64,000 bases of DNA from Marinitoga litoralis (GTDB lineage: Bacteria; Thermotogota; Thermotogae; Petrotogales; Petrotogaceae): positions 1-64,000 of the forward strand of contig NZ_JAFBDI010000008.1 in assembly GCF_016908145.1 (NCBI RefSeq), read 5' to 3'. A program made the translations under genes and the position numbers. Positions 31,445 to 62,985 of this stretch are shown here, piece by piece. The notes beneath the pieces were generated by a model, which saw nothing but the letters and a program-made list of their open reading frames with translations, searched no databases and was not told where the DNA came from. Position 1 is the first letter of the stretch. Every line of letters starts with the position of its first letter.

Positions 31445-32743
31445 TTATGGATATACTCTATATAATGTTCTTGCAAATGGAATTGCTTCCCTAATATGTT
31501 TTAAACCACAAATCCATGCAACAGTTCTTTCTATACCAAGACCAAATCCACTATGAGGAACAGAACCAAATTTTCTTAAATCAAGATACCATTGGTATTC
31601 TTCAACTGGTAAATTATTTTCTTTTAATCTTTCTATTAATACATCTTCTTGCCAAATTCTTTCTGAAGCTCCTATAATTTCACCATAACCTTCTGGAGCA
31701 ATCATATCATCACATAATACGACATCTGGATTTTCTGGATCTGGTTGCATGTAAAATGCTTTTACTGCTCTTGGGTACTTTTCTATAATTACAGGTTTAT
31801 CAAATTCTTCAGAGATTAATGTTTCATCATCAGCGCCTAAATCGTCTCCCCATTTAATATCGGATCCTTTTTTATTTAATAATTTAATTGCTTCTGTATA
31901 TGTAATTCTTGGGAATGGTGCTTCTATTTTTTCTAATTTTGAAATATCTCTATCTAAAGCAATTAAATTTTCTGATGCATTTTCTAATACTTTCTTTACA
32001 ATATATGATACTAATTGTTCTTGTAATTTCATATTATCTTCGTGTGTATAATATGCAACTTCAGCTTCATTCATCCAAAATTCTATTAAATGTCTTCTTG
32101 TTTTTGATTTTTCTGCTCTAAATGTAGGTCCTAAATTATATACTTTTCCAAGTGCTAAAGCTGCTGCTTCTAAATATAATTGTCCTGTTTGAGCTAAATA
32201 CACTTTTCCATAATCAAAATAGTCTATTTCAAATGTATTACCAGCACTTTCTCCTATAGATCCTGTAAATATTGGAGTATCAACTAAAGTGAATCCGTTG
32301 TTATTATAAAATTCTCTGATAGCTTTTAAAATTTCATGTCTAACTCTTAAAATATGGAATTGTCTTCTAGATCTTATCCATAAGTGTCTATGTTCCATTA
32401 AAAAATCAATTCCATGTTCTTTATTTGATATAGGATAATCTTCATTTGGATTATGAACAATTTCTACATCATCAATATGCAATTCAAAACCAACAGGAGA
32501 TCTTTGATCTTCTACAACAGTACCTCTAACAATTAAAGAACTTTCCATTTTTAATTTTTTAACTTCTTTATATTTTTCTTCACCTAATGTGCTTTTTTCA
32601 ACAATACCTTGTACAAAACCTGTTCCGTCTCTTAATTGTAAAAACGCAATTTTTCCACTAGCTCTTTTATTCCATAGCCAGCCTCTAAATTCAACTTTTT
32701 GTCCTAAATATTTCTTCATATCTTTGATATATACCCATTCCAT
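31445..32743 (-). CDS. asnS: Asparaginyl-tRNA synthetase
   Basis: A 432-residue class IIb aminoacyl-tRNA synthetase. The N-terminal OB-fold anticodon domain (VEFRGWLWNKRASGKIAFLQLRDG, about residues 18-41) is followed by the catalytic core, with motif 2 in FRAEKSKTRRHLIEFWMNEAE and motif 3 in GFGLGIERTVAW near the C-terminus. The start at 32743 follows GGGAGGGAG and matches the family N-terminus MEWVYI. A separate AsnRS-like protein without the anticodon domain is encoded at 61754-62707. Confidence 0.96.
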   Translation of the reverse strand: MEWVYIKDMKKYLGQKVEFRGWLWNKRASGKIAFLQLRDGTGFVQGIVEKSTLGEEKYKEVKKLKMESSLIVRGTVVEDQRSPVGFELHIDDVEIVHNPNEDYPISNKEHGIDFLMEHRHLWIRSRRQFHILRVRHEILKAIREFYNNNGFTLVDTPIFTGSIGESAGNTFEIDYFDYGKVYLAQTGQLYLEAAALALGKVYNLGPTFRAEKSKTRRHLIEFWMNEAEVAYYTHEDNMKLQEQLVSYIVKKVLENASENLIALDRDISKLEKIEAPFPRITYTEAIKLLNKKGSDIKWGDDLGADDETLISEEFDKPVIIEKYPRAVKAFYMQPDPENPDVVLCDDMIAPEGYGEIIGASERIWQEDVLIERLKENNLPVEEYQWYLDLRKFGSVPHSGFGLGIERTVAWICGLKHIREAIPFARTLYRVYP

Positions 32744-46345: not shown

Positions 46346-46885
46346 ATGAATAACATAAAAAGATTTTTTGAAAATGAAAACTTGGATTTCGATATAAGCA
46401 AGTTGTTTAAAAATCATAATCAGAAAATAGCAGTAATTTGTTATGCAGAAAATGAAGAAAAAGAAATTTTAATGCTTGAAAGAATTAAAGAGCCTTTTTC
46501 TGGGAAATTAGTTCCACCGGGTGGAAAGGTTGAAAAGGATGAAGATATAATACAAGCAATTAAAAGGGAATTTTTCGAGGAAACGGGTTTTGAACTAAAA
46601 GATTTAAAACTTAAAGTATTTACATCCGAAGAAGGTCCCGAACACTATAATTGGATATTATTCGTATTTTTAGGTAAAGTAAAAAAACAAGAATTGGGGT
46701 ATTGTAATGAAGGGATTTTAAAATGGGTAAAAAAGGATAAGTTGCTTGAAGAAAATTTGACAAATATTGATAAGAAAATTATCCCATATTTATATGAAAA
46801 AGATGGAATATATTATATTGAAATAAATTATGATGAAAATAAAAATGCAGAGATAATAAATATAGAAAATGTAGAGACTAAATAA
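46346..46885 (+). CDS. NUDIX hydrolase (MutT/8-oxo-dGTPase-like)
   Basis: A 179-residue NUDIX protein. The box GX5EX7REUXEEXGU is intact as GKVEKDE...REFFEETGF (about residues 60-82). NUDIX enzymes hydrolyse nucleoside diphosphate derivatives; the arrangement resembles MutT-type 8-oxo-dGTP diphosphatases (ILMLERIKEPFSGKLVPPGG). ATG at 46346 follows AAAGGCGGTG, preferable to the earlier in-frame start inside that site. It could be co-transcribed with the transporter 32 nt upstream. Confidence 0.9.
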   Translation: MNNIKRFFENENLDFDISKLFKNHNQKIAVICYAENEEKEILMLERIKEPFSGKLVPPGGKVEKDEDIIQAIKREFFEETGFELKDLKLKVFTSEEGPEHYNWILFVFLGKVKKQELGYCNEGILKWVKKDKLLEENLTNIDKKIIPYLYEKDGIYYIEINYDENKNAEIINIENVETK

Positions 46886-61753: not shown

Positions 61754-62707
61754 TTATATAGAATGTTTTCCTGGAGTTTTAGCAAATAAACGAGTATTTT
61801 CTACATGATCTAATCCTAGTATCCATCTAGTAAATCTTTCCACACCAATTCCGCAACCAGCAGAATGTTTTAATAATCCAGCTTTAGCAACTTTTAAATA
61901 TTCTTCAAATTCTTCAGGTGGAGTATTTTTTAATTTCATCCTTTTTATTATTTGTTCGTATTCATGTTCTCTTTCACCACCGGAAATAGCTTCTTCAAAA
62001 CCCTCTGGATATATTAAATCGAAATCAAGCAAAACTTCAGGTCTTTCTGGGTCTTGTTTGTCATAAAATTCCCTTTCCATTAAAGGAATATCTATCATCC
62101 AAAATGGTTCATCAACATCTAAAGAAGCTTTTTTTTCGTAATCATCACCATATTTCTCTTTTAATTCTTTTACAGTATATCTTTTAAATGGTTTTGAAGG
62201 AGTTTTTAATGTAGGATGATACTTTTCTATAATATCAGGATATTTTTCTTTAATTTTTTCAACGGTATAAATTATAGCATCTTCCATAACATCAAATACC
62301 TCTTCTCTTGAAGCTTCTAGCATTTCCATATCAATTTGTACAAAATCAAATAAATGTCTTCCGGTATTCATTTTATCCTCTGTTTCTAATCTAACATTAG
62401 GAGATACAATATAAATTTTTTTATGAACCAATACGGCTACTTGCTTATGTAATATCATAGATTTTGTAACAGAATACTTTTGTCCATAGTATTCAAATTC
62501 AGTTCCAAAATGTGGATGATTCAATGGATCAGTAATTGGTGAAACGGTAACTGGTAGCAATTCAACAAAGCCCTTTTCATCTAATACTTTTCTAATGCTT
62601 CTTAATATTTCTGCTTGAACAATAGTTGCCTCTTTATAAACTGGGTTTTCCAAATACTCTTTAACTAATTCTACAGTATCAACTTTTCTACTTTCTACAG
62701 ATTTCAT
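61754..62707 (-). CDS. AsnRS-like class II core protein, probable asparagine synthetase (AS-AR type)
   Basis: A 317-residue protein that resembles the catalytic core of AsnRS/AspRS but has no anticodon-binding OB domain. Motif 2 is in NVRLETEDKMNTGRHLFDFVQIDME (about residues 118-142) and motif 3 in GIGVERFTRWILGLDHV near the C-terminus. In archaea such an AsnRS paralogue (AS-AR, studied in Pyrococcus abyssi) makes free asparagine from aspartate and ammonia. A leader peptide with eight Asn codons and an attenuator immediately upstream supports that role. ATG at 62707 follows GGGAGAGGG; the earlier in-frame TTG lies inside this site. A true AsnRS is encoded at 31445-32743. Confidence 0.82.
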   Translation of the reverse strand: MKSVESRKVDTVELVKEYLENPVYKEATIVQAEILRSIRKVLDEKGFVELLPVTVSPITDPLNHPHFGTEFEYYGQKYSVTKSMILHKQVAVLVHKKIYIVSPNVRLETEDKMNTGRHLFDFVQIDMEMLEASREEVFDVMEDAIIYTVEKIKEKYPDIIEKYHPTLKTPSKPFKRYTVKELKEKYGDDYEKKASLDVDEPFWMIDIPLMEREFYDKQDPERPEVLLDFDLIYPEGFEEAISGGEREHEYEQIIKRMKLKNTPPEEFEEYLKVAKAGLLKHSAGCGIGVERFTRWILGLDHVENTRLFAKTPGKHSI

Positions 62708-62785
62708 AATACCCTCTCCCTTCAAAAATATTAAAATAATAATCTCTCCCTCTCCGAAAATAATATTTTTTTAATTATAAGATAA

Positions 62786-62864
62786 TAAAAAAACCGGCGC
62801 TGAAATAAAATCCAGCGCCGGTGTAATTATAAACGACAAATTACCTCGCGTTACACCAACGCTG
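62786..62864 (-). promoter_or_regulatory. Asparagine attenuator: competing antiterminator and terminator
   Basis: On the minus strand the terminator pairs ACCGGCGCTG (62822-62813) with CAGCGCCGGT (62802-62793), then a T-run to about 62787. The antiterminator pairs CAGCGTTGGTGT (62864-62853) with ACACCGGCGCTG (62824-62813): 12 consecutive pairs, two of them G-T. A third hairpin, GCGTT/AACGC, can sequester the antiterminator strand. A ribosome stalled in the Asn codons leaves the antiterminator strand free; a ribosome at the leader stop covers it and the terminator forms. About 80 nt separate the terminator from the gene. Confidence 0.85.
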
Positions 62865-62927
62865 TATGTTATTATTATTATTATTATTATTTAAATTTTC
62901 AATTTTTATGAATTTTATATTTAACAT
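62841..62927 (-). CDS. Leader peptide with eight consecutive Asn codons
   Basis: A 28-residue frame: ATG at 62927-62925 with Shine-Dalgarno AGGTGG, then residues 13-20 are eight Asn in a row (seven AAT and one AAC), followed by IQRWCNAR and TAA at 62843. Outwardly the run looks like an ATT microsatellite, but reading frame, ribosome binding site, a consensus promoter upstream and an attenuator downstream show a control peptide that senses charged tRNA-Asn. It ends in Ala-Arg-stop like the leader at 43530-43658. Confidence 0.88.
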   Translation of the reverse strand: MLNIKFIKIENLNNNNNNNNIQRWCNAR

Positions 62928-62956
62928 ATGTAACACCACCTAAATATTTTTTTCTT

Positions 62957-62985
62957 ATTATACAACAAAATGAATATATTGTCAA
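62957..62985 (-). promoter_or_regulatory. Consensus sigma-70 promoter of the asparagine leader
   Basis: TTGACA (62985-62980) and TATAAT (62962-62957) are both perfect consensus hexamers with a 17-bp spacer. The start site would be near 62950, about 23 nt before the leader ATG. The -35 overlaps the stop codon of mutL. Confidence 0.85.

Follow-up and report, generated by a model that had tools for sequence, protein, structure and literature searches.

A run of eight consecutive asparagine (Asn) codons lies between mutL and a gene resembling that of asparaginyl-tRNA synthetase (AsnRS) on the minus strand of the window, i.e., the whole stretch of 64,000 nucleotides of Marinitoga litoralis DNA that was analysed, and it raises the question whether such a run is a mere trinucleotide repeat or the sensor of a regulatory device. 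A previous interpretation of this DNA (hereafter the sequence-only reading) had proposed an asparagine-sensing leader-peptide attenuator. Our comparisons of sequences, together with modelling, argue strongly for ribosome-mediated transcription attenuation at this locus, with asparagine as the amino acid that is read and asnA as the gene that is controlled.

On the minus strand from 62985 to 62787, a promoter, a Shine-Dalgarno (SD) sequence, an open reading frame (ORF) with Asn codons, an antiterminator and a terminator were all found between mutL and asnA. The distance from the mutL stop codon to the asnA ATG (62707) was measured as 274 bp, the same length as had been reported, and the promoter, which is of the sigma-70 type, does show the perfect consensus claimed for it, with a -35 box TTGACA (62980..62985), which overlaps the end of mutL, and a -10 box TATAAT (62957..62962) separated by a 17-bp spacer. 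The same TTGACA-17-TATAAT arrangement was found again 5' of the leader in every genus member checked (the genus also includes Marinitoga lauensis). An SD sequence AGGTGG (62936..62941) is located 8 nt 5' of the ATG of a leader ORF with 28 codons (MLNIKFIKIENLNNNNNNNNIQRWCNAR; 62841..62927, ATG at 62927, stop codon TAA at 62843-62841), which ends in NNNNNNNNIQRWCNAR and carries the eight consecutive Asn codons previously described (AAT seven times and AAC once; 62868..62891).

Directly 3' of the Asn run, and still within the leader ORF, region 2 (CAGCGTTGGTGTAA; 62851..62864) is complementary to region 3 (TTACACCGGCGCTG; 62813..62826). An antiterminator, as proposed by the sequence-only reading, is hence present, but it consists of 14 contiguous pairs (G-U pairs included) rather than 12 bp. 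Region 3 is common to this antiterminator and to an intrinsic terminator, in agreement with the earlier claim that both use the same strand; the terminator hairpin (ACCGGCGCTGGA/TTCAGCGCCGGT, loop TTTTAT; 62793..62822) was placed by folding and comparison and continues into a U run (T7; 62787..62793). The locus thus presents a leader ORF with a ribosome binding site 3' of a promoter, Asn codons that fit the controlled gene, a terminator and a competing antiterminator, which are the elements of an attenuator. The folding z-score of the entire 161-nt leader was -2.7, and as a candidate for a protector hairpin of regions 1 and 2, only a pairing between the SD region and region 2 was predicted in the window's own sequence. 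A TATAAT-like sequence was also observed just 3' of the terminator (62731-62782, minus strand) and could allow weak constitutive expression of asnA.

The gene behind the leader (61754..62707, minus strand; ATG at 62707, SD GGGAGAGGG) encodes 323 amino acids and had been described as AsnRS-like. This description holds for the catalytic core, but judging from its length and alignment the product appears too short to include the anticodon-binding domain that a tRNA synthetase would carry at its N-terminus and is better named asparagine synthetase A (AsnA), as it scored 424 bits against NF005054, the NCBIfam equivalog for asparagine synthetase A (cut-off 309). Its closest solved structure is the archaeal asparagine synthetase A (PDB 3p8t), a likeness that lies in the catalytic core of the enzyme and concerns the gene product, not the switch. 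This assignment improves the case for an attenuator, as the amino acid sensed is the product of the controlled gene. A true asparaginyl-tRNA synthetase gene, asnS, is located elsewhere in the window (31451..32728, minus strand; NF003037, 574 bits, and TIGR00457, 486 bits, both above cut-off), so that asparagine made by AsnA can be charged onto tRNA-Asn. GatB is also present in the genome, as is one AsnB-type gene above cut-off, and AsnA may therefore not be the sole source of asparagine.

Under the proposed mechanism, RNA polymerase would start at the promoter and a ribosome would begin to translate the leader. With ample Asn-tRNA, this ribosome would reach the stop codon and cover region 2, regions 3 and 4 would form the terminator, and asnA would be off. 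Conversely, if Asn-tRNA is short, the ribosome would stall in the Asn run just 5' of region 2, region 2 would pair with region 3, no terminator would form, and asnA would be transcribed until asparagine is restored; the AsnRS of the same genome would couple free asparagine to tRNA charging.

Genes for asnA of this type were found in 49 of 103 Thermotogota genomes, two of which were set aside as they contained too little upstream sequence. In all 47 checkable genomes (47/47) an Asn-run leader ORF followed by a terminator was present 5' of asnA (the terminators in about nine loci were placed by hand); one leader (L017) was sited farther upstream. The prediction that the Asn run, the leader frame and both pairings would be kept with compensatory changes in homologous gaps was thus borne out in these 47 genomes. 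The run ranges from nine Asn codons to Asp-Asn-Asn, the latter in several members of genus g12, a lineage with just two to four Asn codons per leader, and it reads DNDN in one genome. Among 53 leaders, 38 mix AAC and AAT within the run, which indicates that the run is not a microsatellite and is kept as amino acid sequence; the sequence-only reading had noted that the run could easily be dismissed as a trinucleotide repeat. Across lineages only the Asn run is common, while N-terminal sequences and tails vary (e.g., QRWCNAR, QRR, GPGSVG, WPGSVS and IDIGRLG).

Covariation was assessed in three alignments, designated A1 (11 sequences), A2 (19 sequences, the window's family) and A3 (17 sequences), with 500 shuffles each. 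In A2, the observed covariation score exceeded those of all 500 shuffles, both for the antiterminator and for the terminator, and the same held for the antiterminator in A3. In A1, 83% of the antiterminator was paired and its covariation was not beyond that of the shuffles (110/500); in this alignment, which represents lineage f7, a further hairpin, in which region 2 is sequestered, does covary. Moving the partners by 1-3 columns strongly lowered the paired fraction in every case. The effect of relatedness is not entirely eliminated by any of these controls. The promoter, the ORF with its Asn run and the mutually exclusive antiterminator and terminator are, at the level of sequence comparison, conserved and covarying.

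We also modelled occlusion by the ribosome in 53 leaders, folding the RNA between the ribosome edge and an RNA polymerase that had just cleared region 3. The mean number of expected antiterminator pairs was 14.2 when the A site was placed at the first Asn codon, 11.0 at the last Asn codon and 1.5 at the stop codon. In this model, a stalled ribosome allowed the antiterminator in all 53 leaders, and a ribosome at the stop codon left fewer than 3 expected antiterminator pairs in 42 of them. When region 2 was shuffled, 9.0 expected pairs still formed on average (as compared to 14.3), and only 24 of the 53 loci exceeded all 20 shuffles of region 2. The model also predicts that the antiterminator forms in many leaders when no ribosome is present; untranslated leaders may therefore read through, and a strict state of superattenuation would not be general.

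The Marinitoga genome is AT-rich and has about ten further sites at which at least five Asn codons follow one another, and the hairpin lies downstream of mutL; one could hence hypothesize that the run before asnA is a microsatellite of AAT units in a gap rich in A and T, that the hairpin is the mutL terminator and that the module is coincidental. None of the other Asn runs of this genome that were inspected was leader-like, however, and a blind scan of 416 kb of the genome (the window plus 352 kb more) for a codon run with stop codon, antiterminator and terminator returned the leader site with a score of 33 and one other weak site with a score of 22; the same scan of reversed sequence returned no sites. 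Coincidence is also at odds with the 47/47 conservation, which includes less AT-rich lineages where Asn runs are rare (one five-Asn-codon match each in the genomes G012 and G023), with the mixed AAC and AAT codons, with a consensus promoter placed between mutL and the leader, and with the covarying pairings. We thus consider this explanation extremely improbable. No more credit is due to the hypothesis that the leader ORF is the gene of a small functional protein, with a terminator that acts on its own; the position of the ORF is conserved and its SD sequence is good, but the Asn run alone is common across lineages while the N-terminus and the tails differ, and the covarying antiterminator strand falls on the codons of the tail.

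An explanation that keeps the attenuation but changes the signal, i.e., that the leader senses mainly a general slowdown of translation or another regulator rather than asparagine, is somewhat less improbable than these two, yet still unlikely. There are leaders whose response is to translation in general, and a response to asparagine is predicted here from sequence; on the other hand, the codons in every lineage encode the very amino acid that the controlled enzyme makes, and related genomes pair Trp codons with a trpB-like gene, Thr codons with thrS and Asp codons with aspS (see below). An attenuator that reads asparagine thus remains by far the preferred explanation.

In a second phylum, asnA was found in 11 of 54 genomes, and a leader was present in 5 of the 10 cases with upstream sequence. 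In the tree, the five leaderless asnA genes of this phylum form one group (support 93/100). The leader-bearing ones cluster with the Thermotogota family f7, and one of them (L078) falls inside it; this placement fits a joint transfer of gene and leader. We also observed that three leaderless asnA genes of the second phylum (L067, L070 and L073, in G115, G405 and G404) are located last in an amino-acid ABC transporter operon. No Asn leader was found before the first gene of this operon in G115; the contigs of G405 and G404 start at or inside the operon. In the genome G019, both asnA and its leader belong to the type of the Marinitoga family, where the tree also places this asnA. The same genome carries an orphan Asn leader (MSEEMKVRKVFVLVETSKDNNNNNRPGSVGYCFI; L166, G019:C1:791985-792082) with a terminator and no asnA behind it. 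This orphan is of the type found in G019's own order and was probably left over after replacement of asnA, which makes G019 a clear case of a regulatory module that travels with its gene.

The trp, his, leu, ilv, thr and pheA attenuators of Proteobacteria resemble the Marinitoga leader in that a short ORF repeats codons for the product of the pathway, antiterminator and terminator overlap, and a biosynthetic gene lies downstream; they differ from it in that the Marinitoga leader reads asparagine, occurs in Thermotogota and targets a single AsnRS-like asparagine synthetase. In Firmicutes, asparagine genes are under the control of the T-box riboswitch (RF00230), which likewise monitors whether a particular tRNA is charged and acts through a terminator, but does so by direct binding of the tRNA and independently of leader translation. 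Searches for the T-box gave no match in the leader region or in any of the 103 Thermotogota genomes (0/103), while control genomes were positive. Among the families of Rfam 15, none matched the leader at gathering score, the best being L10_leader (E 0.11, below gathering score). Leader attenuators with codon runs and a terminator are described for actinobacterial trp, ilvB, leuS and trpS, i.e., also 5' of tRNA synthetase genes (PMC1262725); no Asn case is named there, and both the phylum and the genes are different. According to Naville and Gautheret (2010), leader-peptide systems had, to their knowledge, been demonstrated only in Proteobacteria and Actinobacteria until they described one in Firmicutes. 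The claim that no Asn-reading attenuator was previously known, nor one in Thermotogota, agrees with our survey, in which no Asn leader was found; as this survey covered the open-access literature, priority is not certain.

Covariance models of the leaders were also run over the Thermotogota phylum. In two genomes (L134 in G008 and L165 in G010), an Asn-run leader with a terminator is located directly 5' of the glutamine synthetase gene glnA. In genus g6 (L193 and L183-L185), the Asn run is the C-terminal tail of GltD, the small subunit of glutamate synthase (...SSNNNNNKQRRLKTL), and the order is the gltD Asn tail, an antiterminator-like sequence, a terminator, and then the ammonium transporter gene amt and a P-II-like gene. 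This arrangement occurs in five g6 genomes (seen in detail in G046, G048 and G049, and as model matches in G047 and G050). In G048, the glutamate synthase model stops at residue 493 of 506 and the tail NNNNNKQRRLKTL extends past it. The gltD tail is a candidate intercistronic attenuator, and, if confirmed, it would represent an attenuator whose sensor belongs to a real enzyme.

All of these additional Asn leaders are located at nitrogen assimilation genes (glnA, gltBD-amt-glnB). We tend to favor, if only by a modest measure, the broader hypothesis that Thermotogota, which lack T-boxes, use leader-peptide attenuation as their tRNA-charging layer and that Asn-tRNA signals to an ammonia-assimilation regulon (asnA, glnA and amt-glnB), with the gltD tail as sensor in one genus, so that completing one protein would decide the transcription of the rest of the operon. 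These data suggest that leader attenuation in Thermotogota does what T-boxes do in Firmicutes. The mechanism itself is a familiar one; within the limits of our survey, what is new is the amino acid that is read, the phylum, the set of targets and the version with the gltD tail. Asparagine would be added to the amino acids sensed through leader translation, and the range of such leaders would gain a phylum.

Leaders with other codons were also observed, with pairings judged by eye only. A leader MKENMEFRRSSEINAWWWYDRYFGRT with a terminator lies 5' of a TrpB-like gene (L167, G016:C8 near 46478-46597) and is a candidate Trp attenuator. The leader MLKYKLSITTTTNSAGKRRCKF, with four Thr codons, is followed by a terminator and then thrS (L187, G054:C342), and the leader MSVLSFKKVDDDIIAP, with three Asp codons, by a long antiterminator-like pairing, a terminator and then an aspS of the non-discriminating type (L188, G053:C222). 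Lastly, a leader-like ORF (VMVIINSAGSRCVF) with a terminator was observed 5' of an ABC transporter ATPase gene (L186, G054:C395).
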